Of a stretch of DNA of 64,000 nucleotides, positions 15,499 to 30,991 are shown one piece after another; the stretch's first letter is position 1, and each line of letters begins with the position of its first letter. The stretch covers positions 1,077,001-1,141,000 of the forward strand of contig NZ_AP023027.1 in the NCBI RefSeq assembly GCF_014467075.1, read 5' to 3'. The position numbers and the translations under genes are program-made. Source of the DNA: Anaerostipes caccae L1-92 (GTDB taxonomy: Bacteria > Bacillota > Clostridia > Lachnospirales > Lachnospiraceae). The notes under the pieces are model-generated. The model was not told the origin of the DNA, ran no database searches, and saw only the letters and a program-made list of their open reading frames with translations.

Positions 15499-16485
15499 AT
15501 GAAAACTTTACAAAAAATCAGCAGTATGCTGTCCAGCAAAACGTCTGTTTTTGTCATCTTAGTGGCGATTGCAGCCTTCTTTGTCCCGGATATTTTCTCC
15601 TGGGTACAGGGAAATAATCAGAGCCTTGTACTTGGAGTCATCATGTTTACGATGGGACTGACATTGACGACAGAAGACTTCAAAGTGTTGGCAAAACGTC
15701 CGCTGGATATCTTTATCGGAGCAGCGGCTCAGTACCTGATCATGCCGTTTCTGGCTTATGGGATTTCGACTATTTTAAGACTGCCCAATGAGATTGCCAT
15801 CGGATTGATTCTCGTCGGGTGCTGCCCAGGAGGGGTATCATCGAATATCATGTCATACCTATGCCATGGAGATGTACCGTTTTCCGTTGGAATGACTACG
15901 GCATCCACGCTTTTGTCACCACTCATGACACCGATGATGGTACTGTTTTTGGCAGGAGCAAGGATCGAAGTCAACGCCGCTTCCATGTTCATCTCGATCG
16001 TGAAATCTGTACTGCTTCCGGTCTTGCTCGGATTTATACTAAATACATTGTTTGGCAAAAAGGAAGCCTTCAAAGAAGCACAGAAGGTCATGCCGGGGAT
16101 CTCAGTGATCGGGCTGGCATTGATCGTCGGAGGCGTTATTGCACTTCAGGGAGCGAATTTCTTTAAATCTGGTGCTGTGATCTTTATTGCAGTTTTGCTG
16201 CATAACAGTCTTGGATATGCCCTTGGCTATGGAGTCGGTAAACTGACAGGAATGAACACAGCAAAGAAACGCACAATTTCGATTGAAGTTGGAATGCAGA
16301 ATGCGGGACTTGCTACAAATCTGGCAACGGCCCATTTTGCCGCAGCACCTCAGGCGGCTATGGCCAGTGCGGTATCCTGTGTATGGCACTCAATCTCAGG
16401 AACTATTTTGGCAGGATTCTATTTACAAAAAGATAATATGCAGGAAGAACAGGCCAAAAACAGGCTGGCAGCAGAAACAGAATAG
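15499..16485 (+). CDS. Bile acid:sodium symporter (BASS) family transporter
   Basis: This 328-residue membrane protein is predicted to have about ten hydrophobic segments. The BASS-family features are present: GVIMFTMGLTLTTEDF, the Na-site segment VGCCPGGVSSNIMSYLCHGDVPFSVGMTT, and EVGMQNAGLATNLA. Bacterial members carry organic anions such as pantoate, bile acids or ketoacids with Na. ATG 15499 is chosen because GATGGGAG lies just upstream and the promoter with its -10 at 15456-15461 rules out earlier starts. It stands alone between two terminators, with its own operator. The substrate is not clear; in a gut organism a bile acid is possible but not shown. Confidence 0.92.
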   Translation: MKTLQKISSMLSSKTSVFVILVAIAAFFVPDIFSWVQGNNQSLVLGVIMFTMGLTLTTEDFKVLAKRPLDIFIGAAAQYLIMPFLAYGISTILRLPNEIAIGLILVGCCPGGVSSNIMSYLCHGDVPFSVGMTTASTLLSPLMTPMMVLFLAGARIEVNAASMFISIVKSVLLPVLLGFILNTLFGKKEAFKEAQKVMPGISVIGLALIVGGVIALQGANFFKSGAVIFIAVLLHNSLGYALGYGVGKLTGMNTAKKRTISIEVGMQNAGLATNLATAHFAAAPQAAMASAVSCVWHSISGTILAGFYLQKDNMQEEQAKNRLAAETE

Positions 16486-16493
16486 TTTTTTAG

Positions 16494-16530
16494 GGATACA
16501 CTTGTATTGTATAGGTGTATCCTTATTTTT
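16494..16530 (+). terminator. Terminator after the BASS gene
   Basis: GGATACAC (16494-16501) and GTGTATCC (16515-16522) form a perfect 8-bp stem, followed by TTATTTTTT. Confidence 0.75.
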
Positions 16531-16668
16531 TGGCTTAATTTCAGACTTTTTGACAAAAATTATGAAGTAATTGGTTAATATTCGCAGTTCTATTACATTT
16601 CTTTCCACTTGATTTTCTTATGTTTCTAATTTATAGTTAGTCCTGAAAAAGTTTAGGAGCGCAAAGAG

Positions 16669-17766
16669 ATGAGAGAAGAAAAGTTTTATGAAGAATTGAG
16701 TCCATATGTGGAGCGGGCCAAGCAGGGGGATCAGGATGCCTTTGAGCATCTTTACCAGGCTACATATGATATGACCAAATGGTTTGTGCTGAATTTTTGT
16801 AAGGATAAAAATGAGGCAGAAGACATTATACAGGAAATATATTTGGATGTTTACCGTTATCTGCCGGATTTGAAAAATAATCTGGCATTTTGCGCGTGGC
16901 AGAGAAAGATTTCATATCGCTGCTGTATCAGATTTTCCAAACAGAAGAAGGATGTTGTCGTTGGAGACAGTGTCATTGAAACAATGGATCATATAGCGGA
17001 GAAGGACAGTGAGCCGCAGGAAGCTGTTCTGAAGGATGAAAAAAATCAGCTGCTGTTTCAGTGCATTTCAAATCTGCCGACAAAACAAAAGGCCGCAGTG
17101 ATCATGAGTGGCCTGTGGCAGATGAAAATGAGAGAAATTGCGGAAGTCATGGATTGTGACATTAATGCGGTGAAAAATCTCTTGTATCATGGAAAGAGAA
17201 ATTTGAAAAAACAGATACAGAAGCTTCCAAAGGCGGACAGAGAGGCGCTTGGAGTACGGAGTTTCGGTTTCTTTGTTTTTTATCCGCCGATTCGGGAATG
17301 CGTAGTTTCGTCTTCGAAACATTTATCCGGACATTTTTTGGCAGCAAAAAAAGCAGCAATTACTGTTCTGACAGTCTGTACAGGTGCCGCAGCTTTGGCT
17401 TTATGGCAAAGTGAACCTCTGGCGGAAGAAAGTTTTGATTCTGTTGTGCTGCCGAAGATGTCTTTGGAGACAGAGGAGTTGGAAGGGATCAAGATCCCGG
17501 CAAAGAAAAAAAAGAAACCCTCCATCCCGGTAAATTACAGCTCTATGAGAGTCAATAAAAAGACAAAGTTGCTTGAGGTTCGGGTAAGCGGGAGGATTCA
17601 CTATGGTAAAACCTATACAAAAACAGATTCCGGTAAAATTATGTACCCTGTCAAATATGATTCATCAAGAGGGATTCTTTATTTTCCGGCAAGGGCAGAA
17701 AATTTTGTTCTTTACCTGACGGCAGAGGATGGACGGTCAAAGATGTACAGGTTTTATAAAAAATAA
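16669..17766 (+). CDS. ECF-type sigma factor fused to a transmembrane segment and an outer domain
   Basis: A 365-residue fusion. Residues 1-90 hold sigma region 2 (DQDAFEHLYQATYDMTKWFV, EAEDIIQEIYLDVYRYL); residues 125-180 hold sigma region 4 (LPTKQKAAVIMSGLWQMKMREIAEVM, then INAVKNLLYHGKRNLKKQI). A membrane segment follows (AAITVLTVCTGAAALALW), then a lysine-rich linker and a small beta-like outer domain (MRVNKKTKLLEVRVSGRIHYG to the end). An ECF sigma normally has about 180 residues, and the sensor part here takes the place of a separate anti-sigma factor. It sits upstream of the three large surface proteins, so may control them. No anti-sigma gene is adjacent. Confidence 0.87.
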   Translation: MREEKFYEELSPYVERAKQGDQDAFEHLYQATYDMTKWFVLNFCKDKNEAEDIIQEIYLDVYRYLPDLKNNLAFCAWQRKISYRCCIRFSKQKKDVVVGDSVIETMDHIAEKDSEPQEAVLKDEKNQLLFQCISNLPTKQKAAVIMSGLWQMKMREIAEVMDCDINAVKNLLYHGKRNLKKQIQKLPKADREALGVRSFGFFVFYPPIRECVVSSSKHLSGHFLAAKKAAITVLTVCTGAAALALWQSEPLAEESFDSVVLPKMSLETEELEGIKIPAKKKKKPSIPVNYSSMRVNKKTKLLEVRVSGRIHYGKTYTKTDSGKIMYPVKYDSSRGILYFPARAENFVLYLTAEDGRSKMYRFYKK

Positions 17767-17784
17767 ATTAGAATGACTATGATA

Positions 17785-17826
17785 AGTCTGAATCAGTATT
17801 TTAGAAAAAACTGATTCAGACTATTA
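17785..17826 (+). terminator. Terminator after the sigma-fusion gene
   Basis: AGTCTGAATCAGT (17785-17797) and ACTGATTCAGACT (17810-17822) form a perfect 13-bp stem with a 12-nt loop. The following bases, ATTATTTT, are only partly T-rich. Confidence 0.75.
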
Positions 17827-17914
17827 TTTTATGAAATAATCTAACATTTTTAACAGAGAGTTTTTCTTGTTGTCAACTATAAAAATATATTTAGTTGAAA
17901 GAAGGGCAATTGAG

Positions 17915-18022
17915 ATGAATGAGGTGAGGACGAGTAAGAGACTGATTCTTTTCGTGCTTCTGGGGGCGGCATTTCTCTTGGCCATAACCCATGGATCAAA
18001 AAAATCCAGATTTGAAAGTTAA
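17915..18022 (+). CDS. 35-residue single-pass membrane peptide
   Basis: An ATG with GAAGGG 8 nt upstream opens a 35-codon frame: MNEVRTSKRLILFVLLGAAF, then more hydrophobic residues (LLAITHG) and a basic end (SKKSRFES). One membrane helix of about 17 residues is clear, with positive residues on both sides. It lies in the 324-bp gap between the sigma-fusion gene and the first surface protein. I do not recognise a family. It could be a leader peptide, a small accessory membrane protein or a chance frame; the good ribosome site is the main support. Confidence 0.45.
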   Translation: MNEVRTSKRLILFVLLGAAFLLAITHGSKKSRFES

Positions 18023-18090
18023 GCACTATATGAAAACGAAATAAGCTAAAGCTGACAAATATTAAGATATGCAGAGTGAAGGGGAAGAAA

Positions 18091-21000
18091 ATGATGAGGA
18101 AAATGATGAGATGGAAAAAGGTTCTTGCATTTGGCATGGCAGCGATCTTTTTTATTGGGATAATTCAGGATACAGGCAGCATTAATGCTGCAGAAGAGGG
18201 CACGGAGCAGGAAGATATTGCATCGGATATAAAAAATGTTACAGAGACATCGGAAACAATAACACCCGAGACCGAAACGTCAGATGGAGAAAGAAAAGAT
18301 AAAAAAAAGCAGGACGAGAACCCAAACATTCAGAAAAAAGTTATAACTCGAAAAAAAGCAGGCAGTGATGCGAAAAAGAAGAAATTAGTGAACGGTCAAA
18401 CTCTTTTGGATGTAAGCAAGGGAGATATTGTAATCAAAGTAACAGGTGCAGCAGGCGGCGGACTGGAAGAGGATGAGACTGAACTAAACCCGGAAGGATA
18501 TCGGATCACAGGTACGACAGAGGATCATAATGTAACGGTTGAGCGTGGTGTTACAACCGGCATAACCCTTGATAATGTAGATATCACCTGTGGAAAGCAG
18601 CCAATGGATACGCCAAACAGAAAACTTGATTGTATCAATGTATCACATGCCAATGTCACCATTCTTTTAATTGGCACGAATCGGTTGACCAGTTATGCCG
18701 GAAATCCAGCTGATGTTTTCGACGGTTATGAAGGCAACGCTTTAGCAAAAGATGGAATGGACGGAGAACTGACAATCAAGTGTCAGAAGGCAGGTCAAGA
18801 AGGTCATAAATGTGATGATAACTGTGGATCGCTTTATGCAGGAGGAAACAGGGATCTATATCATGCTGGTGCCATAGGCAGTACCAGAAGAAATGCCGGA
18901 AATTCTTCCGAAGCAGGCTTTGTAAATTTTACCATTGAAGGTGGAAATATTGAGTCTGTGGGAGGAAAACACTCCCCGGGATTAGGAGGAGCCTGTTGTA
19001 CAACATTACTTGGAGGAAAGTCAGTAAATAATATTCGAATTAGCGGGGGAAATGTAAAAGTAAAAGGAAATGAATTTTGTGCAGGACTGGGAGCAGGGTA
19101 TCACTGTGATTTAAATGGACTTTATATCACCGGAGGAATCGTTGAAGCAGAAGGAGGGGCAAATGCTCCGGGAATTGGTTCCATAGAATATCCTTCAAAG
19201 AATATAGTGATCAGCGGTGGTGATACTGTCGTTACTGCGATTGGAGATGAAGAAACCGGAAAACCGGGGATAGGAACTTCTTCAAGTTCGACGGAAAATG
19301 TTGTCGCCATTCCGGACCCGGGATACCAGGGGTACATACAGGATGGAACAGGATTAAAACCGGACGAGTACACTTTTACAGCTGAATCACCATTCCAAGT
19401 CAAAACAAGTATTGTAGTCGGAAAATTTTATACAAAGGTCTATTTTGGACATCATAGAGATGAAAATACTGTGGATAACACAACTAAGGAACAGATTGGC
19501 GCAAACAATATCATTAGTAAAAGTGGCGGGACAGCCTTTACGGAAGAACAGCTCAAAATATTAAGCAAAGTTATCGGAAAAAAGAAAGATGGGACAGAGT
19601 ATCCTTTAAAGGAACTGTCCATCGCAGATAAATCACAGATGCAAACGATTAACCAGGCAAAGACAAAAGGTGAAACCGGAGAGTTTCCGCTTACATTTCA
19701 AACGCCCGATGGAACAGAAGTAACGATCAAGGTATATTTGAAAGAACAGGGTAATGACGGGGTAGATTTTGATCCATTGAATCCGTCTTCTGTCATCGGG
19801 GCAGATAATTTTGCCAAAGAGACCGGAGGCATTGAATGGACGGAAGACGATGTCAAACAGTTTGCTGAATTAAAAGGAAAGGATTCAGATGGCAATGATA
19901 TTGCATTGGATGATTTCAGTTTAGACAAGGAACAGCTAGATGAAATCAACAAGATGAAGACTGACGGAAAAGCCGGTGAATTCGATCTGAAATTTACCGA
20001 TCCCGAAGGAAATTCTGTAACAGTTACAGTGACTCTGACAGGAGAATTTGATCAGATCAAAGAAAATCCGATAAATCATGAGATTATTAAGGCGCAGAAC
20101 GTAATCAGCAAAACAGGAGGAAATGGTTTTACTGAGGAACAGCTAAAAGACATCACTTTATTAAGAGCCGTTGACAAGGATGGGAATGAAATACAAAAAG
20201 ACAAGCTGAGTTTGTCAGATATTACTCAGTTAGAACGCATCAACAAAGCCAAAGAATCCGGAAAAACCGGAGAATTTCCTCTGACATTTACAACAGAGAA
20301 TGGAACTGAAGTTACCATCAATGTTTTTCTTAGGGAAGAAGGAACGGACGGAACAAAGCAGAAACCCGGAAACGCAAGCATTGCCGCAAATCATATAACC
20401 CAAGAGACTGGTGGAATTGGATTCAGCAGAGAAGAAATCATAACTTTGTGTGATGTAAAAGGAAAAAATCAATATGGAGACACCGTGCCGGTCAAAATAA
20501 ATGAAAAACAGCTGGAAGCAATCAATCGTGCCAAACAGGCAGGAAATACCGGGGTATTTCCTATGACCTTCTCCATGTCAGATGGTACATCCGTGACGGT
20601 CAACGTAACGCTGACGGGAGAACATAAGGTGACATTTGATCCTAATGGGGGAGACTATAAACCGGAAGATTATACGGTCACTGGCGGGGAGAAGATTAAG
20701 AGACCGGAAGATCCAAAGAAAGACGGATATACTTTTGAGGGATGGTATTATACGGATGAGAACGGCAAGGAACAGAAATGGGATTTTAATGATCCATTAA
20801 ACCAAGAGATAGAACTAAAGGCAAAATGGAAGAAGGATGACGAGGTATCAAAAAATACAGAAAAGGATACAAAAAAAGATTCAGAAATAAAAACACCCGC
20901 ATCAGACAAAAAACAGGCTTCTAAAAAGAAGAACGCCAAGAATAAGTCAGATAAAAAAGGTGAAGCACTTCCAAGATGGGGACAATACCAGATCAAAGGA

Positions 21001-21132
21001 AAGAACAGCGGAAAAGCAGGAGTTGCTGAAACATCTGATGAGAAAATGCCGTTTGAGATATTAGTTTTACTGATGGTTAGCGGAAGCGTCAGCGCTGGGA
21101 TATTGTTTAGAAACTATAATAGAAGAAAGTAA
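18091..21132 (+). CDS. Large cell-surface protein, paralogue 1 (beta-helix-like domain, four repeats, InlB-type repeat, C-terminal anchor)
   Basis: A 1013-residue protein with a signal peptide (ends near INAAEE). A Thr/Glu/Lys-rich linker comes first. An N-terminal carbohydrate-binding-like domain follows (LVNGQTLLDVSKGD to VVGKFYTKVYFG), rich in Gly, with conserved Cys and a CX8HXCX3C motif around GHKCDDNC. Four repeats of about 95 residues follow (start IGANNIISKSGGTAF; each ends in V-x-V-x-L), then an InlB/Listeria-Bacteroides repeat (HKVTFDPNGGDYKPEDYTV to LKAKW). A Lys/Ser linker leads to LPRWGQYQIKG and a final membrane helix ending RNYNRRK. There is no LPXTG motif. ATG 18091 follows AAGGGGAAG; a GTG at 18076 is also in frame. 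Confidence 0.85.
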   Translation: MMRKMMRWKKVLAFGMAAIFFIGIIQDTGSINAAEEGTEQEDIASDIKNVTETSETITPETETSDGERKDKKKQDENPNIQKKVITRKKAGSDAKKKKLVNGQTLLDVSKGDIVIKVTGAAGGGLEEDETELNPEGYRITGTTEDHNVTVERGVTTGITLDNVDITCGKQPMDTPNRKLDCINVSHANVTILLIGTNRLTSYAGNPADVFDGYEGNALAKDGMDGELTIKCQKAGQEGHKCDDNCGSLYAGGNRDLYHAGAIGSTRRNAGNSSEAGFVNFTIEGGNIESVGGKHSPGLGGACCTTLLGGKSVNNIRISGGNVKVKGNEFCAGLGAGYHCDLNGLYITGGIVEAEGGANAPGIGSIEYPSKNIVISGGDTVVTAIGDEETGKPGIGTSSSSTENVVAIPDPGYQGYIQDGTGLKPDEYTFTAESPFQVKTSIVVGKFYTKVYFGHHRDENTVDNTTKEQIGANNIISKSGGTAFTEEQLKILSKVIGKKKDGTEYPLKELSIADKSQMQTINQAKTKGETGEFPLTFQTPDGTEVTIKVYLKEQGNDGVDFDPLNPSSVIGADNFAKETGGIEWTEDDVKQFAELKGKDSDGNDIALDDFSLDKEQLDEINKMKTDGKAGEFDLKFTDPEGNSVTVTVTLTGEFDQIKENPINHEIIKAQNVISKTGGNGFTEEQLKDITLLRAVDKDGNEIQKDKLSLSDITQLERINKAKESGKTGEFPLTFTTENGTEVTINVFLREEGTDGTKQKPGNASIAANHITQETGGIGFSREEIITLCDVKGKNQYGDTVPVKINEKQLEAINRAKQAGNTGVFPMTFSMSDGTSVTVNVTLTGEHKVTFDPNGGDYKPEDYTVTGGEKIKRPEDPKKDGYTFEGWYYTDENGKEQKWDFNDPLNQEIELKAKWKKDDEVSKNTEKDTKKDSEIKTPASDKKQASKKKNAKNKSDKKGEALPRWGQYQIKGKNSGKAGVAETSDEKMPFEILVLLMVSGSVSAGILFRNYNRRK

Positions 21133-21150
21133 AAAAAGGGGGATAAAAGG

Positions 21151-23994
21151 GTGAATAAAATGAGGAGATGGAAAAAGATTGTCGCATTAGTTTTAGCGGC
21201 AGTGTTTTCGATTGGGATGGTTCAGGATACAGGCAACATTCATGCTGCAGAAGAGAACAACAGAGCAGGCAATGATAAGAAACAAAAGAAATTGGTAAAT
21301 GGACAAACCCTTTTGGATGTAAGTAAAGGAGATATTATAATTAAAGCGACAGGTGCAGCAGGCGGCGGTCTGGAAAATGATGAATCTGAGCTAAATCCGG
21401 AAGGATATCGAATCACAGGTACAACAGAAGATTATAATGTGACAGTTGATCGTGGTGTTACAACAAAACTTACCTTAGATAATGTAGATATTACTTGTGG
21501 TAAACAACCAAATAGGAAACTTGATTGTATCAATGTATCACATGCTGACGTTGAGATGATTTTGATTGGTAAAAATAAATTGACTTGCTATGCGGGAACT
21601 GTTGTAGATGATGGAGGTACCACCACGGGAAATGCATTAACCAAGGACGGAATGGATGGATCGCTAACAATCCGATGCCAAAATTCTGGTCAAAAAGGGC
21701 ATAAATGTGATGATAACTGTGGGTCACTTTATGCAGAAGGAAGCAGAAGTTTATTCCATGCAGGTGCTATAGGAAGTACAAGGAGAAGTTCTAATAGTTC
21801 TTCTGAAGCAGGATTTTCAAATTTTACCATTGAAGGAGGGAATATTGAAGCTTTGGGTGGGATACATTCCCCAGGATTAGGAGGAGCCTGCTGTACAACC
21901 AATATTGGAGGGCAGTTAACTAGTAATATTCGAATTACAGGTGGAATTGTAAAGGCGAAAGGAAATCAAGGCTGTCCTGGTTTAGGAAGTGGATATCATT
22001 GCGATTTAGATGGTCTTTATATTACTGGAGGAATTGTAGAAGCCGAAGGAGGAGTTGATGCTCCGGGAATCGGTTCTATAGAATATCCGTCAAAAAATAT
22101 TATTATTAGTGGCGGTGATACCATTGTAACTGCTATTGGTGACAAATCAACCGGGAAACCCGGGATAGGGACTGCCGCTAGTACGATGACAAATGTTATT
22201 GCAGTTCCAGATCAGGGTTATCAAGGGTACATACAGGACGGAACTGGATTAAAACCAGAAGAGTATAGTTTTACAGAGCAATCACCGTTTCATAATCGTT
22301 CTGATATTGCTGTGGGTAAATTTTATACAAAAGTATATTTTGGGCCTTATAGAGATAAAAATACAGTGGATGATACAACCAAAGAACAGATTGGTGCCAA
22401 TCACATTATTAGTAAAAGCGGCGGTAGAGCGTTTACGGAAGAACAGCTAAAAATTTTAAGTAAAGTCACAGGAAAGAAAAAGGATGGAACCGAGTATTTA
22501 TCATCAGAATTATCCATCGCAAATAAAACACAGATGGAAGCGATCAACAAGGCAAAGACCAAAGGCGAAATAGGAGAATTCCCGCTCACATTTCAAACAT
22601 CCTCCGGAACACAGGTTACAGTTACAGTATATCTGAAGGAAAAAGGAAGCGATACAGCGGAGTATGATCCGCTGTATCCATCAGCGGTAATCGGGGCAGA
22701 TAGTTTTGCAAAAGAGACCGGTGGATCAGCATGGACGGAAGACGACATAAAGAATCTTGCAGGATTAAAGGGGAAGGATTCTGCCGGAAATAATATTGAA
22801 TTAAGTGATTTCACTATAGATGAGGGGATTTTAGATAAAATTAATAAAATCAAGACTGCTGGAAAGGCTGGAGAGTACGATGTGAAATTTACAGATCCTG
22901 AGGGAAACTCAGTCACAGTGAAAGTGACCTTGACAGGAGAGTTTGACCAGATTAAAGAAAACCCTGTAAATCATGAGATTATTAAGGCACAAAATGTAAT
23001 TAGCAGGACCGGAGGAAAGGGATTTACCGGGGAACAGCTGAAAGAACTTTCTCAACTGAGAGCTGTCGATGAGGACGGGAACGAAATTTTAAAAGACAAG
23101 CTCAGTCTGTCAGACAGTGCTCAATTAGAGCGCATCAACAAAGCAAAAGAAGATGGGAAAACCGGAGAATTCCCATTGACGTTTACAACAGAGAATGGGA
23201 CCGAAGTGACTGTCAGCATTTTTCTTCGAGATAAAGGGACCGATGGGGCAGACCATAAGGATGGCAGCGCCAGCATTGCAGCAAATCATGCGAATCATGA
23301 GACTGGCGGAGAAAAATTCAGCAAAGAAGAGATCATCGCCCTGTGTGATGTAAAAGGGAAAAATCAATACGGAGACACGATGCCGGTCAATGCAGATGAA
23401 AAACAGCTGGAAGCAATCAACCGTGCTAAACAGGCAGGAAATAGCGGGGTATTTCCAATGACCTTCTCCATGTCAGACGGTACATCCGTGACGGTCAATG
23501 TAACGCTGACGGGAGAACACAAGGTGACATTTGATTCTAATGGAGGAGATTATACACCGCAAGGCCAGACAGTTACCGGAGGAGAGAAGATCAAAAAACC
23601 CGAAGATCCAAAGAGAGACGGATACGCTTTTGAGGGTTGGTATTATACCGATGAAGATGGGAAAGAACATAAATGGAATTTCAATGATCCTCTGCACAGG
23701 GGGATTACATTAAAAGCGAAATGGAAAAAGGACAGTGGAACGTCTAAACGTACAGAAACGACCAAACCAGCATCAGGGAAGAAACAGCCATCTAAGAAAA
23801 AGTCAGATAAAAAAACAGAGACGCTCCCTGAATGGGGACAATACCAGATCAAAGGAAGCGGCAGCGGAAGTGAAAGAGGAGGAGCTGTAAAAACATCTGA
23901 TGAGAAAATGCCGTTTGAGATATTAATTTTACTGATAGTTAGCGGAAGCATTGGCGCTGGGCTGTTGTTTAGAAATTATAATAGAAGAAGGTAA
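21151..23994 (+). CDS. Large cell-surface protein, paralogue 2
   Basis: A 947-residue paralogue, 18 nt after the stop of paralogue 1, with GTG start at 21151 and GGGGG upstream (an ATG at 21160 is in frame). The domain order is the same: signal peptide, N-terminal domain with GHKCDDNC, four repeats, one InlB-type repeat and a C-terminal helix after LPEWGQYQIKG. It lacks most of the Thr/Glu-rich linker of its neighbours, which explains the shorter length. The last third is almost identical at DNA level to paralogue 1 (compare 23401-23530 with 20508-20640), whereas the first half differs more, a mosaic pattern expected after recombination. It is likely displayed on the cell surface; the ligand is unknown. 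Confidence 0.85.
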   Translation: MNKMRRWKKIVALVLAAVFSIGMVQDTGNIHAAEENNRAGNDKKQKKLVNGQTLLDVSKGDIIIKATGAAGGGLENDESELNPEGYRITGTTEDYNVTVDRGVTTKLTLDNVDITCGKQPNRKLDCINVSHADVEMILIGKNKLTCYAGTVVDDGGTTTGNALTKDGMDGSLTIRCQNSGQKGHKCDDNCGSLYAEGSRSLFHAGAIGSTRRSSNSSSEAGFSNFTIEGGNIEALGGIHSPGLGGACCTTNIGGQLTSNIRITGGIVKAKGNQGCPGLGSGYHCDLDGLYITGGIVEAEGGVDAPGIGSIEYPSKNIIISGGDTIVTAIGDKSTGKPGIGTAASTMTNVIAVPDQGYQGYIQDGTGLKPEEYSFTEQSPFHNRSDIAVGKFYTKVYFGPYRDKNTVDDTTKEQIGANHIISKSGGRAFTEEQLKILSKVTGKKKDGTEYLSSELSIANKTQMEAINKAKTKGEIGEFPLTFQTSSGTQVTVTVYLKEKGSDTAEYDPLYPSAVIGADSFAKETGGSAWTEDDIKNLAGLKGKDSAGNNIELSDFTIDEGILDKINKIKTAGKAGEYDVKFTDPEGNSVTVKVTLTGEFDQIKENPVNHEIIKAQNVISRTGGKGFTGEQLKELSQLRAVDEDGNEILKDKLSLSDSAQLERINKAKEDGKTGEFPLTFTTENGTEVTVSIFLRDKGTDGADHKDGSASIAANHANHETGGEKFSKEEIIALCDVKGKNQYGDTMPVNADEKQLEAINRAKQAGNSGVFPMTFSMSDGTSVTVNVTLTGEHKVTFDSNGGDYTPQGQTVTGGEKIKKPEDPKRDGYAFEGWYYTDEDGKEHKWNFNDPLHRGITLKAKWKKDSGTSKRTETTKPASGKKQPSKKKSDKKTETLPEWGQYQIKGSGSGSERGGAVKTSDEKMPFEILILLIVSGSIGAGLLFRNYNRRR

Positions 23995-24078
23995 GACTAA
24001 GTGGCTGGAAAAGGGTCTGTCTTAGGATGCCCTTCTTGTTGGTGAACATTAAAATATGCAGAGTAGAGGAGAAGTAAA

Positions 24079-27000
24079 ATGTCTAAAACGAGGAGATGGA
24101 AAAGGATTCTTATACTGGCTGTAACCGCAGCTTTTTCTGTTGGACTTATTCATGACTTGGGCAGCATAAATGCTGAAGAACGTTCGGAACAGACGGAAGC
24201 CACAACAGAAACTGAGATTTCAGCGACAGAAATAAAGGAAGGCGATGATTTAAAGACAGAAGCTTTAGATACAAGTGTGTCTGAGCCAGAAATATCGCAA
24301 AACAAGACGATTACCCCCCCCCCCCCCCCGAAAAAAGAAGGCGGCAGCCAAAAGTAAGAAATTAGTAAGCGGACAAACACTTTTGGATGTAAGCAAGGGG
24401 GATATCGTGATCACGGCCACCGGCGCCACAGGCGGCGGACTGGAAGAAGATGAATCTGAGCTAAATCCGGAAGGATACCGGATCACGGGTACAACAGAAG
24501 ATTATAATGTAACGGTTGAGCGTGGTGTTACAACAAATTTAACCTTAGATAACGTAGACATCACCTGTGCAAAACAGACGGCTGGGGTCACAACAAATAT
24601 CAAACTTGATTGTATCAATGTATCACATGCCAATGTTACTATGATTTTGATTGGCAAAAATCGTCTTATTTGTTATGCGGGAGATACCTGGGATTCTCCA
24701 GGTGGCAATACGGGGAATGCGTTGGCTAAAGATGGAATGGACGGAGAACTGACGATCAAGTGCCAAAAAGCTGGTCAAAAAGGACATAAGTGTGATGATA
24801 ACTGCGGGTCACTTTACGCCGAAGGTAATAGAGATTTATTTCATGCAGGCGCCATAGGAAGTACCAGGAGAAGTTCTAACAATTCTTCAGAGGCAGGATT
24901 TTGCAACTTTACCATTGAAGGGGGCAATATTGAAGCACTGGGTGGGAAACATTCTCCAGGGCTGGGAGGTGCTTGCTGTGCAACAAGAATAGCAAAAAAA
25001 TCTGCAAAAAATATTCGAATAACAGGTGGAAATGTAAAGGCAAAAGGGAATTTTTCATGTGCAGGTTTAGGTGCAGGACTTCAGTGTGAATTAGATGGAT
25101 TATACATTAGTGGAGGGGTTGTAGAAGCAGAAGGAGGCGAAAATGCTCCTGGTATCGGTTCTATAGATTATCCATCTAAAAATATAACGATCAGCGGTGG
25201 GGATACCGTTGTCACTGCAATTGGAGACGAGGCCTCTGGAAAACCGGGGATAGGTACTGTTTCAAGTACAATAACAAATGTATTTGCAGCACCGAATCCG
25301 GGATATCAGGGGTATATACAGGACGGCACCGGACTAAATCCGGAAGAGTATAATTTTACGGCGGAATCTCCATTCCCGACAAATTCAAATATTGTAGTGG
25401 GGAAATTTTACACAAAAGTATATTTTGGTCCTTACCGAGATGAAAACACAGTAGATAACACAACGAAAGAACAGATTGGTGCGAACAATATTATTAGCAA
25501 GAGCGGGGGAACGGCCTTTACAGAAGAACAGCTGAAGATCCTCAGTAAAGTCACCGGAAAGAAGAAAGATGGAACGGAATATCTTTTGGAGGAGTTATCC
25601 GTTGCGGATAAAGCACAGATGGAAGCGGTTAATCATGCTAAGATCAAAAATGAAACCGGAGAATTTCTGCTTACATTTCAAACATCTGCAGGTACAGAAG
25701 TGCAGATTACAGTATACTTAAAAGAACAGGGCAGTGACGGCGTGGAGTATGACCCGCAGGACCCGACATCTGTCCTTGGTGCAGACAATTTCGCCAAAGA
25801 GACTGGAGGTACCGAATGGACCGAAGACGATGTCAAGCAGTTTGCCGAATTAAAAGGAAAGGACTCAGATGGCAATGATATTGCACTGGATGATTTCAGC
25901 TTAAACCAGGAACAGCTTGATAAGATCAACAGCGCAAAGACCGCAGGAAAAGCGGGTGAATTTGATCTCAAATTCACCGATCCGGAAGGAAACTCAGTCA
26001 CAGTGACAGTTACCTTAACGGGAGAGTTTGACCAGATTACAGAAAATCCGGACAATCATGAAATTATTAAGGCACAAAATGTGATCAGCAGGACAGGAGG
26101 AAAGGGCTTTACCGAGAAGCAGCTGAAAGATCTCTCTTTGTTAAGAGCTGTTGATGAGCATGGAAACGAAATACAAAAAGACAAGCTCAGTCTGTCAGAA
26201 AGTGTCCAGTTAGAACGTATTAACAAGGCAAAAGAAGACGGAAAAACCGGAGAATTTCCTTTGACATTTACAACAGAAAATGGAACTGAAGTGGTCATCA
26301 AAGTTTTTCTCAGGGATGAGGGGACCGACGGTACAGACCACAGGAGCGGCAGCGCAAGCATTGCAGCAAACCATGCAAGCCATGAAACCGGCGGAGATGC
26401 ATTCAGCAAAGACGAAATTATTACCCTGTGTGATGTAAAAGGAAAAAATCAATATGGGGATAGCATACCAGTCAATGCAGATGAGAAACAGATGGAGACG
26501 ATCAACCGTGCAAAACAGGCAGGAAAAACCGGGGTATTTCCTATGACTTTTTCTATGTCAGACGGTACATCGGTAACGGTCAAAGTGACACTGACAGGAG
26601 AACACAAGGTAGTGTTTGACCCCAGCGGAGGAGATCATAAACCGGAAGACCAGCTAGTTACCGGGGGAGAAAAGATCGAGAGACCGTCAGATCCGAAAAG
26701 AGACGGATACACGTTTGAAGGATGGTATTACACTGATGAGAATGGAAAGGAACAGAAATGGGATTTTAATGATTCATTGAATCAGGGAATAGAATTAAAA
26801 GCAAAATGGACAAAGGAGAGGGAAGCATCTAAGAGTACAGAACAGACAAAGGACCCCAAAAAAGAACCCCCGGCATCAGACAAAAAGCAGGCATCCAAAA
26901 AGAAGCCATCTAAGAAAAAGTCAGATAAAAAAACAGAGCAACTTCCTGAATGGGGACAATACCAGATGAAAGGAAGTGGGAATGGAAACCAAAACGGAGA

Positions 27001-27112
27001 ATTATCTGAAACTTCTGACATAAAAACACCATTTGTAATCTTAATTTTACTGATAGCCAGCGGAAGCATCAGTGCCGGTCTGATGTTCAGAAATTATAAT
27101 AGAAGAAAGTAA
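24079..27112 (+). CDS. Large cell-surface protein, paralogue 3, frame broken at a 16-C tract (probably phase-variable, OFF here)
   Basis: The start (MSKTRRWKRILILAVTAAFS) has GAGGAG upstream and codes for a signal peptide and Glu/Thr-rich linker. This frame runs into a tract of 16 C at 24314-24329 and then stops at 24355-24357. The rest of the protein (LVSGQTLLDVSKGD onward) is open in the +1 frame to 27112. Fifteen or eighteen C would join the two and give about 1010 residues, the same length as paralogue 1. The N-terminal domain with GHKCDDNC, the four repeats, the InlB-type repeat and the LPEWGQYQMKG-plus-helix end are all intact. With no other lesion, a switchable gene is more likely than decay. 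The promoter region (24045-24078) resembles that of paralogue 1. Confidence 0.87.
24314..24329. repeat. Poly-C tract of 16 bases inside a coding region
   Basis: Sixteen C in a row between ACGATTA and GAAAAAAG. It would code for a Pro run in the linker between the signal peptide and the first domain. A change of one or two bases restores the frame. No other homopolymer of this length was noticed in the window. Confidence 0.95.
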
Positions 27113-27117
27113 AACAG

Positions 27118-27150
27118 AAAAGACTCTCTTTTGATTAAGAGGGTCTTTTC
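27118..27150. terminator. Bidirectional terminator between surface protein 3 and the flavodoxin gene
   Basis: AAAAGACTCTCTT (27118-27130) and AAGAGGGTCTTTT (27137-27149) pair with a 6-nt loop and one mismatch. A-rich and T-rich sides suit both converging genes. Confidence 0.75.
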
Positions 27151-27159
27151 TTGAGATTG

Positions 27160-27708
27160 CTAGATATACTGTCTGACATCCTGTACCAGAGGAAGGATGC
27201 TGTCCCGATCGGTAAAGTCTACGTGTTTTCCATAAGTTTCAAGAATTCCCTGGTCCTCCTCTGTTAGGTCCTCCAGTTTTTTCTTGGAGAGCATTTTTTT
27301 CATCATCCACATCATAACCCGGTGTTTTCTGCTGAACCGGGAATAATCCATCCAGCCTCTGAGGTGATAGAAGGAAATCTGTTGTTTCAATTCACCGGGG
27401 AAAACTGAATCTAGATTTTTTAAAATGTGTTCTACATTTTCCGGCAGCGCAGGATCGGCAATTCCGCAAGTAAATACAAACACTTTTTTCTTTTGTATAA
27501 ATTCAGGATGGCGGGAAATCAGGGAAATACCGGTGACTCCTCCGGCATAAAGGCCGCCGCCGTAAATGATAACGTCATAGGGTTCCAGGACAGAAAGATC
27601 CAGGTTTTTATTTTCATACAGATCGGCAGACAAGGAGTCGGCGATCCACTGTGCGTATTGTTTTGTGGACCCGTAAACGGACCCGTAGACAACTGCGGTT
27701 TTCTTCAT
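27160..27708 (-). CDS. Flavodoxin-domain protein (protoporphyrinogen-oxidase HemG-like)
   Basis: This 182-residue FMN-binding protein starts with the flavodoxin phosphate loop VVYGSVYGSTKQYAQWIAD, followed by VIIYGGGLYAGGV and FVFTCGIADP. The C-terminal part (FYHLRGWMDYSRFSRKHRVMMW) is like the HemG-type family and the flavodoxin-like proteins of Firmicutes. It may carry electrons in a redox or heme-linked reaction. Its start overlaps the stop of the MarR-type gene by 4 bp (ATGA), so the two are co-translated and probably autoregulated through the palindrome at 28165-28182. Confidence 0.88.
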   Translation of the reverse strand: MKKTAVVYGSVYGSTKQYAQWIADSLSADLYENKNLDLSVLEPYDVIIYGGGLYAGGVTGISLISRHPEFIQKKKVFVFTCGIADPALPENVEHILKNLDSVFPGELKQQISFYHLRGWMDYSRFSRKHRVMMWMMKKMLSKKKLEDLTEEDQGILETYGKHVDFTDRDSILPLVQDVRQYI

Positions 27709-28147
27709 ATATTACATTCCTCCATGTTTTTCATCATAGTATTCAGGGTTTCCAGTGCGGTCTTCAGCTGTGTCTCTGAGATATCCTTGTATAAAAGATC
27801 CATAAAAGCTTCTTCCTTTAAGGCATACGCAGACTGCAGTGATTCGGCTTTTCTGCCAAGGCGCACCCGGCTTTTGCGGCGGTCATCCGGGTCAGTTTCT
27901 ATTTCCGCATAACCTTTCTGCTGAAGCTTTAAAGCGATCTGCTTTACATTTTGGTGGGAACTGCCCATAAGGGAGGAAAGTTCATTGAAAGTTGGGGCAT
28001 ACTCAAAGGTATTGAGAGCAGCCAGAAGAAACCATTGTTTTGACGTGATCTCTTCATAGAAGCGGTCTCCGATTGACTGGAGCCGGTTACTGGTCATAAA
28101 TAATGCAGCAAACAGCAGGTGTCTGCTGTCGTAATCTTCTAATTTCA
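27705..28147 (-). CDS. MarR-family transcriptional regulator
   Basis: This 147-residue regulator has the MarR winged helix (TSKQWFLLAALNTFEYAPTFNEL, SSHQNVKQIALKLQQKGYAE) and the wing DPDDRRKSRVRLG. Start at 28147 is chosen because AGGAGG lies 8-13 nt upstream and the palindromic site would otherwise be within the gene. It is co-transcribed with the flavodoxin gene. MarR proteins bind 16-20-bp palindromes near their own promoter; a perfect 18-bp one lies 18 bp upstream. The ligand is unknown. Confidence 0.92.
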
Positions 28148-28164
28148 TGGTCGAAATACCTCCT

Positions 28165-28182
28165 ATATGTAATATATTACAT
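28165..28182. promoter_or_regulatory. Perfect 18-bp palindrome, probable MarR operator
   Basis: TATGTAATATATTACATA is fully self-complementary and lies 18 bp upstream of the MarR start (minus strand). It is AT-rich and of the size MarR dimers bind. Confidence 0.75.
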
Positions 28183-28213
28183 AAATTATGAAATGTCAAA
28201 GAAAATGGAAAGA

Positions 28214-28228
28214 AACCGGATTCCGGTT
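28214..28228. promoter_or_regulatory. 15-bp palindrome before the LacI gene
   Basis: AACCGGA-T-TCCGGTT, perfect 7-bp arms, 61 bp upstream of the LacI-family start. It shares the AACCG word with the two sites at 31059 and 31117, so it may be an autoregulatory site. Confidence 0.5.
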
Positions 28229-28288
28229 GCACAATCCGGGAAATCATCTTACAATAAAATCAAGTATGAGAGAAAGGCAGGATACACA

Positions 28289-29278
28289 ATGCCAAAAAAA
28301 ATAACAATGGCTGATGTGGCAGAGATGGCGGGAGTGACAAAAAGCACGGTTTCCCGTTATTTTAATGGGGGATATGTCAAAAAGGCTACGAGGGAAAAGA
28401 TTCAGAAAGTAATCGAAGAATATAATTATGCACCGAATACATTTGCAAGGTTAAAGGCAAAGGAAAGCAATGTGATCGGGGTCGTAGTGCCTACGCTGAA
28501 TTCCAAGGTTACCAGCCGTGTCATCACAAGCATTGACCGGTATTTAAGGGACAGGAATTACACAACACTGATCAAAAACTCAGATCATGATATTGATCTG
28601 GAGCTTTTAAATATACAAAAGCTGATTCATCTGAATGTGGATGGGATTTTGATCAGTTCTATCGCAGTCACAGAGGATCACCGTGATATTTTTGAGCAGA
28701 CACAGATACCCATTGTTGTCCTGGCTCAGGATTATGAGGACGGGATTTCTATCATCGATGATGATTACAATGCTGGAAAATGTGTGGGAGAATATATCGG
28801 AAAAACAGGTCATAAGAACGTTGGATATATTGGTGTTTATGAGACCGATGAGGCCGTAGGTATCCGAAGGCGTCAGGGAGTTCTGGACGGACTTGCGGCA
28901 TTTGGAATTCATGATCCGCTGATAAAAAAGAGTGATTACAGTTTTCTCGGAGGACAGAAAAATACGAGAGAGATCCTGGAGGAAATGAAGCCGGACGCTA
29001 TTGTGTGCGCCACTGACCGTCTGGCGTTTGGAGCCTATAAAGTTTTGCAGGAGAAAGGGCTTCGCATCCCGGAAGATATTTCGGTGGTGGGATTTGGCGG
29101 ATATGACGAGAGCAGTCTTTTAACGCCGGAGCTTACGACACTGAAATTTGATTCCTATGGAATGGGATATCTCGGGGCGGAGACGATTCTCAAGATGATA
29201 AAAGAAGAACCGGTATCCAAGAAACAAATCGTAGAGTATAAATTTATAGAAGGTAAGAGCGTAAAAAATCGAACATAG
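28289..29278 (+). CDS. LacI-family transcriptional regulator (probable sucrose/fructoside repressor)
   Basis: This 329-residue repressor has the LacI helix-turn-helix (ITMADVAEMAGVTKSTVSRYFNG), a hinge (YAPNTFARLKAKES) and a periplasmic-binding-like core (VIGVVVPTLNSK, DGILISSIA, CATDRLAFGAYKVLQE, VVGFGGYDES). ATG 28289 has AAGGCAGG upstream; the in-frame extension to 28103 overlaps the divergent MarR gene and is rejected. The sucrose-type operon starts 1.9 kb downstream with two AACCGATACC sites, so it is a candidate regulator, although two sigma/anti-sigma genes lie between. A terminator follows at 29285. Confidence 0.9.
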   Translation: MPKKITMADVAEMAGVTKSTVSRYFNGGYVKKATREKIQKVIEEYNYAPNTFARLKAKESNVIGVVVPTLNSKVTSRVITSIDRYLRDRNYTTLIKNSDHDIDLELLNIQKLIHLNVDGILISSIAVTEDHRDIFEQTQIPIVVLAQDYEDGISIIDDDYNAGKCVGEYIGKTGHKNVGYIGVYETDEAVGIRRRQGVLDGLAAFGIHDPLIKKSDYSFLGGQKNTREILEEMKPDAIVCATDRLAFGAYKVLQEKGLRIPEDISVVGFGGYDESSLLTPELTTLKFDSYGMGYLGAETILKMIKEEPVSKKQIVEYKFIEGKSVKNRT

Positions 29279-29284
29279 GACTGC

Positions 29285-29331
29285 AAAAAGGCCATAAGAT
29301 CCGGATTAAGCTGGATTTTATGACTTTTTTT
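29285..29331 (+). terminator. Terminator after the LacI gene
   Basis: AAAAGGCCATAAGATCC and GGATTTTATGACTTTTTTT form an imperfect stem with mismatches, with a 10-nt loop and a T-run. Confidence 0.65.
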
Positions 29332-29405
29332 CTGTCAGAAATGTCTGTCTGTATACGAAATATAGAGTGAAGGCGGGAACTGTTCAGGGGACAGGAGACA
29401 AAGTT

Positions 29406-29960
29406 ATGAAAGCAACGGAGAAAAATTTTATAAATCTGATCAGGAAAAGGAGGGAGGAAGGGCTGCTCTATGCCGTGGAAACCTACGGATGGGTCATTCA
29501 GTCTGTGGTTAGGAAGCATTTGTTTTTGCTGCCGGATCTGCAGCAGGAGTGTATGAATGATGTTTTGATGGCAGTCTGGCAGCACATCGGTGATTTTGAT
29601 CCGAATACAGGCAGTTTTCAAAACTGGGCAGCGGGAATTGCCAGATTTAAGGCAATCGATTGTAAACGGAACTATTTGAGACGGAGCAGAAAATATGTGG
29701 ATATAGAAGACCAGTTCATTGAAGATGAACATGCCGGAAGACAGATGCTGAAGGTAGAATTGGACCAAGAAATAAAAGAATTATTTGAACAGCTGTCCCA
29801 GCCGGAGCGTGAAATTTTTCAGAAGCATTTTATTGAGGAAGCCACCATCGAAGAGATATCAGCGGAAATGGGATTAAATGAAAGTACGATCTATCAGAGA
29901 ATATCAAGAGGAAGAAAAAAGCTCAGAAAACATAAAGAGATCAGGGAGGCGGGACAATGA
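29406..29960 (+). CDS. ECF-type RNA polymerase sigma factor
   Basis: This 184-residue sigma factor has region 2 (VVRKHLFLLPDLQQECMNDVLMAVWQHI, with the DF-NTGSFQNWAAGIARFKAID segment) and region 4 (LSQPEREIFQKHFIEEATIEEI, LNESTIYQRISRGRKKLRKH). ATG 29406 is chosen because AGGAG lies about 8 nt upstream. It overlaps the following gene by 4 bp (ATGA). That gene codes for an anti-sigma-like membrane protein, which is the usual arrangement. The signal and regulon are unknown. Confidence 0.92.
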   Translation: MKATEKNFINLIRKRREEGLLYAVETYGWVIQSVVRKHLFLLPDLQQECMNDVLMAVWQHIGDFDPNTGSFQNWAAGIARFKAIDCKRNYLRRSRKYVDIEDQFIEDEHAGRQMLKVELDQEIKELFEQLSQPEREIFQKHFIEEATIEEISAEMGLNESTIYQRISRGRKKLRKHKEIREAGQ

Positions 29961-30991
29961 ATATATATCGCATCTTAAATAAGATAAAAACAAAGATTCC
30001 GGAGAGCGAGAGAGATCTGGAAGATCAGGAAATGACAGACCAAATGAAGACGATGGCAAGAAAGATTGCAGGGAAACAGAAACGGCGGCAGGCTTTTTTT
30101 AAGAAGGCAGCGGCAGCGGCCATTGTTGTGATTATTGGAGGAGGAACTGCCGTGGCAGCTTCCGGAGGCTGGGGAAATCTGATACCCAAATTATTTAACA
30201 GCACGCTCATCGGAAAAGGCACAGAGACAGATCTGGAGGAGTACAGCGGAAGTGACAAAGTAATGGCAGAGGCTGAAAGTAAAAATATTAAAGTGAAAGT
30301 GGTACAGTCGGCAGCCTCCAAAGGTATGATTTATATACTGCTGAAAACAGAACTTCCGGAGAACCAGACATTTAAGGAAGATCAGATTTTCAAATACAGT
30401 CTTTTAAAGACCGGAGCAAAAGATGACCCAAAGAAGAAAGAAATGACAGGGATGAACGCGGACCGTCTGCTGTTGGTTCAGAAAAAAGAGAATATCGGAT
30501 GGTTTATATTACAGGCAGAGAGATCTGGTCATGATTTTAAAAATCAGAAGATCATGTTGTCACTGGAGGGATTTACATCTACCCATACAACGGCAGAAGA
30601 TTTGATTTTTGAGAATCCCAAAGGCTCATGGAAGCTGACCTGGAAAGTGGAAAACAGCAAAATGGAAACGGCAGAGGTTCATGTGGATAAAGAATATCAT
30701 TTCCAAAACGGAAAGGAAATCATAAAGAAGATAGAGATTACTCCATTTTATTTCAGGGTTTATCATGGCAAAAAGGGCAGTTCGGAGGATAATTCCAATT
30801 TACCGGAATGTTCTTTAAGGATCAAGGATGGAACGGTCAAAAAGCTTCACTGGTCTTACAGTCAGGGGGCTGACAGGTCGGCAAACGGATATGCTTTTCA
30901 TCAAAGTGATTTTACAGAGCTGATAAATCCTGACAACGTAGAGGCGGTCATTATAGGAGGCAATGAAATATCGGTTTCAAAAAATAAATAA
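29957..30991 (+). CDS. DUF4179-type membrane protein, probable anti-sigma factor
   Basis: This 344-residue protein has about 45 N-terminal cytoplasmic residues, one membrane segment (AAAAIVVIIGGGTAVAA) and a large outer domain. The layout (short N-terminus, TM, beta-rich C-terminus) and translational coupling with the ECF sigma gene indicate an anti-sigma factor of the DUF4179 type. The N-terminal part does not contain a classical zinc-binding anti-sigma motif (HxxxCxxC). The signal it detects is unknown. A terminator follows. Confidence 0.8.
   Translation: MNIYRILNKIKTKIPESERDLEDQEMTDQMKTMARKIAGKQKRRQAFFKKAAAAAIVVIIGGGTAVAASGGWGNLIPKLFNSTLIGKGTETDLEEYSGSDKVMAEAESKNIKVKVVQSAASKGMIYILLKTELPENQTFKEDQIFKYSLLKTGAKDDPKKKEMTGMNADRLLLVQKKENIGWFILQAERSGHDFKNQKIMLSLEGFTSTHTTAEDLIFENPKGSWKLTWKVENSKMETAEVHVDKEYHFQNGKEIIKKIEITPFYFRVYHGKKGSSEDNSNLPECSLRIKDGTVKKLHWSYSQGADRSANGYAFHQSDFTELINPDNVEAVIIGGNEISVSKNK

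Follow-up and report, generated by a model that had tools for sequence, protein, structure and literature searches.

Introduction

Slippage phase variation at multiple loci is known chiefly from pathogens, and the phasome loci of Campylobacter and Neisseria are of mixed functions. Tract phasomes with many contingency loci per genome have been described in both genera (PMC8355987, PMC5084427; reviewed in PMC11868660), and the accessible part of the review remarks on the pathogen bias in knowledge of phase variation. In Listeria monocytogenes, inlA is reported to carry a poly(A) tract as a 5′ homopolymer frameshift in a surface protein gene (PMC2831843), and the SabA adhesin of Helicobacter pylori is reported to be subject to both slippage and ArsRS regulation (PMC2715451). 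In Bifidobacterium breve, sortase-dependent pili are described as switched by intragenic G tracts, with in-frame tract forms two- and tenfold enriched in the mouse gut (PMC9187656).

Here we describe a 16-C tract within a 64,000-nt stretch of DNA (the window), which splits the gene of a large predicted surface protein into a leader and a body. With a probability of about 0.86, we read this tract as a replication-slippage switch of one of about 20 putative surface adhesins, and a layer of control by an ECF sigma factor is proposed on top. As far as the accessible part of the B. breve report goes, its pili resemble the present case in belonging to a gut commensal, in being a surface colonisation structure and in having a gene broken into two ORFs by a G tract. 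However, the pilus clusters with tracts number one or two in a B. breve genome, whereas about 20 paralogues of the putative β-helix adhesin occur here, together with a shared promoter-like motif and linked sigma genes that are unlike what is described for the pili. SabA, in the portion of its report at hand, is like the proposed system an adhesin under slippage and a trans-acting regulator, but that regulator is a two-component system and not a linked sigma factor. The many contingency loci per genome recall the Campylobacter and Neisseria phasomes, as these are outlined in the parts of those reports at hand, except that nearly all tracts here lie in one family. The 5′ homopolymer frameshift in a surface protein is shared with inlA, and an InlB-type B-repeat is also present here, while inlA, by the excerpted account, is a single gene with poly(A). 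The principle is known; the setting and organisation are new.

Results and discussion

A C16 tract separates leader and body of paralogue 3

The genome that contains the window (G000) is a single contig of 3,590,719 bp, and we take its host to be a Lachnospiraceae-type Firmicute. This genome was compared with a second single-contig genome of the same genus (G009) and with a further relative (G004). The features of the locus are as follows.

16669..17766, + strand: predicted ECF-type sigma factor gene, 365 aa (Pfam, NCBIfam, hydropathy)
17841..17871, + strand: promoter-like motif before paralogues 1 to 3 (CTAAC, 20 nt, CTTGTT), a loose form read from the sequence and missed by the strict pattern
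18076..21132, + strand: paralogue 1, 1018 aa, in frame, without a tract (ORF and run scan)
21151..23994, + strand: paralogue 2, 947 aa, in frame, without a tract (ORF and run scan); source of the AlphaFold2 model
24079..24357, + strand: leader of paralogue 3 with signal peptide and acidic linker, its stop just past the tract (ORF reading)
24314..24329, + strand: putative C16 slippage tract (letter count and run scan)
24330..27112, + strand: paralogue 3 body, an open frame offset by +1 from the leader (ORF reading; domains via the paralogue 2 model)

The three paralogues are consecutive, with gaps of 18 nt between paralogues 1 and 2 and 84 nt between paralogues 2 and 3. Between the counterparts of the flanking symporter (15433) and flavodoxin (27160) genes, neither a sigma gene nor a family gene was found in G009 or G004, where these neighbours are spaced by about 1.5 kb and 0.1 kb, respectively. 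The sigma gene and paralogues 1 to 3 (16669-27112) therefore form an extra block in G000. Elsewhere in the window, an ORF at 13464-14192 matches the baseplate Gp10 C-terminal domain.

The preliminary description of this DNA had placed a run of 16 C between a good signal-peptide start at 24079 and an intact downstream body in the +1 frame, and letter count and ORF reading bear this out. The ATG at 24079 opens a signal-peptide-like leader of 92 codons that stops at 24355-24357, and the body of 926 codons is open from the tract to its end, where a hydrophobic segment is followed by a basic tail. Because the body is in frame +1 relative to the leader, the earlier frame arithmetic, by which 15 or 18 C would restore the full protein, is correct. 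Paralogues 1 and 2 had been said to have no such tract, and indeed neither contains a G/C run of at least 8 (window positions 16001-30000 scanned). The window holds eight C9 words, whereas 100 dinucleotide shuffles of it gave 0.57 on average and never reached eight. Judged from the paralogue 2 model, the body would comprise a β-helix head, four Ig/cadherin-like repeats, an InlB B-repeat, a Lys-rich stalk and a C-terminal hydrophobic segment.

Long C/G tracts are concentrated in one gene family

A search with the protein P0001 found about 20 paralogues in G000, besides fragments; the paralogues were counted as 16 genes with tracts, paralogues 1 and 2, a gene at 1505k and a decayed gene at 1469k. 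Sixteen of the 18 C/G tracts of at least 9 in this genome lie within family genes, for which the binomial chance is about 9e-27 with the family footprint assumed to be 1.7%; of the remaining two, one is at 132634 and one inside an ORF of 254 aa at 1196451. In G009, 5 of 7 such tracts are within family genes, and the count per genome is 0-3 in the remaining nine members of the genus. The long-form family occurs in 2 of the 11 genus genomes, G000 and G009, and G004 retains only remnants; a head-domain search of 397 genomes from the bacterial family gave remote matches in 5 others.

The family tracts are 9, 10, 11 and 16 long in G000 and 9, 11, 12, 12 and 13 long in G009. In G000 they come after the signal peptide and no later than the start of the head domain. 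Their sites and bases vary by subfamily, always behind the signal peptide: the window tract is a C tract in a Pro/Lys linker, other genes have G directly after the signal peptide or in a later linker, and a cluster at 659-669 kb has a G tract inside the first turn of the head. Repeated emergence of switches at one functional point suggests selection.

Tract genes are out of frame in two genomes and in frame elsewhere

In G009 all 5 tract genes are out of frame, as are 15 of the 16 in G000; the remaining G000 gene, 700176 (G11), is in frame but truncated. Leaving this gene out, 0 of 20 are in frame across the two single-contig genomes where one third would be expected; the probability is (2/3)^20, about 3e-4, if registers are random and independent, which tandem copies are not. 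This uniformity would fit homopolymer miscalls, whereby the tracts are truly fixed and in frame and their lengths are misread by assemblies. The protein P0124 fits it as well: encoded on a contig of 3,590,728 bp, 9 nt longer than G000, it has the window's own leader, which is thus found with C16 and, out of frame here too, with a longer tract. Its letters also imply the loss of one A behind it. These differences indicate that long tracts are hard to call. However, separate database clusters contain the same or nearly the same alleles in frame and out of frame, the tracts are almost confined to one family, and a tract, even if misread, would still be long and hence slippery. We therefore consider miscalls a very improbable explanation.

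To find in-frame copies, meaning one protein that holds both parts, the leader and the body of each of 21 tract loci were matched separately against the homologues. The query P0001 has 245 homologues, and among the 120 listed, those with a named source are from Anaerostipes. In-frame copies exist elsewhere for 10 of the 21 loci, six of them at 99-100% identity over leader and body (684377 and 1473743 in G000; 581098, 1331687, 2827168 and 3390978 in G009). The copy of 687407 shows 100% and 95% identity, that of 1192865 shows 93%, and that of 1476923 shows 92% and 87% in a partial protein; the 1476923 body is also found behind a third frame (P0083). Among 130 homologues sorted by N-terminus, the tract is readable in 62, with 21 in frame and 41 out; without 5 homologues from a leader-biased search, 17 are in frame and 40 out (n = 57). 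Gene callers trim tract genes to leaderless fragments.

A search with the window's leader returned seven proteins. Leaders of an allele 84-91% like it occur out of frame with C8 (P0126) and C11 (P0125), in these two at 84-86% identity, and the same letters occur in frame in P0009; tract lengths other than C16 were deduced from protein letters. P0009, with 91% identity in the leader and 80% in the body, is the in-frame relative of the window locus and not an identical allele. Both states of one allele are thus seen across the family, and for the window gene via relatives only. According to the preliminary description, one fixed tract length in all strains would have spoken for a sequencing error; instead, the window's leader and the allele related to it are found with tracts in one in-frame and two out-of-frame registers.

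A further alternative is that transcriptional or ribosomal slippage on the tract always reads these genes, so that the DNA register matters little. Such expression is not without precedent, as in-frame mRNAs from RNA polymerase slippage are reported for Buchnera (PMC2831843, accessible part), and the conserved look of the out-of-frame bodies in both genomes (see below) would fit it. Against this, the out-of-frame genes fall into two classes, +1 (12 of 15 genes in G000, 2 of 5 in G009) and +2 (the rest), and one programmed shift cannot serve both; moreover, the same alleles are commonly in frame elsewhere. We regard slippage during expression as quite unlikely, and favour slippage during replication.

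Out-of-frame bodies look conserved

dN/dS was 0.08-0.18 across 14 pairs of paralogues sharing 62% identity or more, values that are rough because synonymous sites are saturated (dS >1) in 13 of the 14. The only pair that is entirely in frame, paralogues 1 and 2, gave 0.135, inside the range of the 13 pairs with an out-of-frame body. The unsaturated pair, 2127935/2740088, two out-of-frame genes whose tracts differ in length, gave 0.176. On these sequence comparisons, the out-of-frame bodies look conserved. They are open to a membrane-like tail in 12 of 15 cases in G000 and in 5 of 5 in G009; those without a proper end in G000 are 668992, 687407 and 1473743.

These data bear on the view that the family is dying and that the tracts mark broken pseudogenes. 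Other lesions in 668992, 700176 and the 1469k gene, and the mere remnants in G004, would be in keeping with decay, but the open bodies, the low dN/dS and the in-frame alleles elsewhere oppose it, making this view scarcely credible. Conserved bodies, in-frame copies and three registers together make phase variation by replication slippage much more probable than either gene death or a sequencing error. The phase-variable reading put forward in the preliminary description is accordingly supported by the restriction of the tracts to the family, by in-frame copies, from other genomes and from metagenomes, of out-of-frame alleles and by the low dN/dS of the bodies.

One homologue, P0005, combines a leader 90% like that of paralogue 1 with a body 88-100% like that of paralogue 3 and a tail nearest to paralogue 2, an apparent mosaic that probably arose by recombination between tandem paralogues.

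The head resembles a glycan-related β-helix

In the AlphaFold2 model of paralogue 2, the head fold is strongly similar to the carbohydrate-binding β-helix of Cthe_2159 (PDB 4phb, 4peu). None of 44 members matched PF14262 at E ≤ 0.01 in the Pfam search, in which the presence of this profile in the searched copy was unchecked. With strong likeness in fold and no profile match, the head is best said to resemble Cthe_2159 and not to be a PF14262 member. Unlike the Clostridium thermocellum protein, the head here would sit within a large multidomain surface protein whose binding is predicted. The head of inlA has a different fold from the head here. The word "antigen" in the preliminary description was a guess; the modelled fold instead suggests a glycan-binding adhesin, and we infer that the family members are candidate glycan-binding adhesins. 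As for sortase anchoring through an LPXTG-type signal, Gram_pos_anchor matched 1 of the 44 members (E 0.0093), and many tails have TGD, TGE or TSD ahead of the hydrophobic segment.

A linked ECF sigma factor and a shared promoter-like motif

The product of 16669-17766 matches Pfam Sigma70_r2 and r4_2, with region 2 just at the cut-off (24 bits) and no region 3 match listed in Pfam, and scores 74.8 bits against the NCBIfam sigma70-ECF cut-off of 42.9. By these profile matches it is assigned to the ECF sigma factor family. Hydropathy shows one hydrophobic segment near residue 229, followed by a C-terminal extension, which would be consistent with membrane tethering. Among 61 genomes, full-length matches were found only in G000 (4) and G009 (2), and all of them (4/4 and 2/2) lie just upstream of a family gene. 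No CTAAC was found within 200 nt upstream of the sigma genes themselves.

The family motif consists of CTAACY, a 20-nt gap and CTTATA/CCTGATA, and its strict form was defined as CTAACY-N19/20-CTKATA. CTAAC lies upstream of 17 of the 19 G000 family genes read, the exceptions being paralogues 2 and 3, whose upstream regions, as read, have no motif of their own. Of about 20 family genes in G000, 15 have the strict form, as do 5 of 6 in G009; looser forms occur at paralogue 1, 736k, 1505k and G009 2827k. Conversely, 15 of the 16 strict matches in G000 and 5 of the 6 in G009 are at family genes, the two outside the family sitting within long ORFs, and the single match in G004 is at a family remnant. 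A reversed-pattern control gave 7 matches versus 16 for the pattern in G000, 8 versus 6 in G009 and 4 versus 1 in G004; since the control exceeds the pattern in the latter two, the motif evidence is one of position and not of number. A dedicated sigma factor that raises the family via the shared promoter is proposed on the basis of co-occurrence and position, both of which are observed. What is new here is the family-linked promoter-like motif together with ECF sigma genes that encode a hydrophobic segment and adjoin family genes.

Proposed model of surface diversification

In the favoured reading, changes of tract length during replication would make the leader with its signal peptide gain or lose the frame of the body, and the adhesin would accordingly be exported or not be made. 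As most paralogues bear a G tract of their own at the equivalent position, each cell would display a random subset. An ECF sigma factor that is tethered to the membrane, and whose genes adjoin family genes, would recognise the CTAACY-N-CTTATA/CCTGATA promoter and raise the whole set, such that the sigma layer would set the timing of transcription and slippage would choose which members get made. We give an even chance to an extended version, a display with two keys, in which a tethered sigma factor that senses an external cue transcribes all members, display is limited to the few adhesins in frame, all switches are closed by default in culture, and recombination between leaders and bodies reshuffles the combinations of glycan-binding adhesins that individual cells display in the gut.

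A benefit in the gut, with enrichment like that in B. breve, would explain two closed genomes versus 30-34% open readable clusters. A host that is presumably, as an Anaerostipes, a butyrate-producing commensal has placed almost all its long G/C tracts in one putative adhesin family that apparently has a sigma regulon to itself. This offers a testable model of surface diversification in a harmless gut Firmicute, and of why all switches are closed in two reference genomes and about one third of the readable database clusters open.

Additional observations

At G000:C1:1469196-1472285, a family copy retains the promoter motif, and its G tract is apparently interrupted (no run of at least 8) and its body split, so that it looks like a locked, decaying copy. 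Outside the family, G009 has a C/G tract at G009:C1:941420 and a G12 tract at G009:C1:3269480, the latter at the very end of an ABC-permease-like ORF, where it could influence the next gene.
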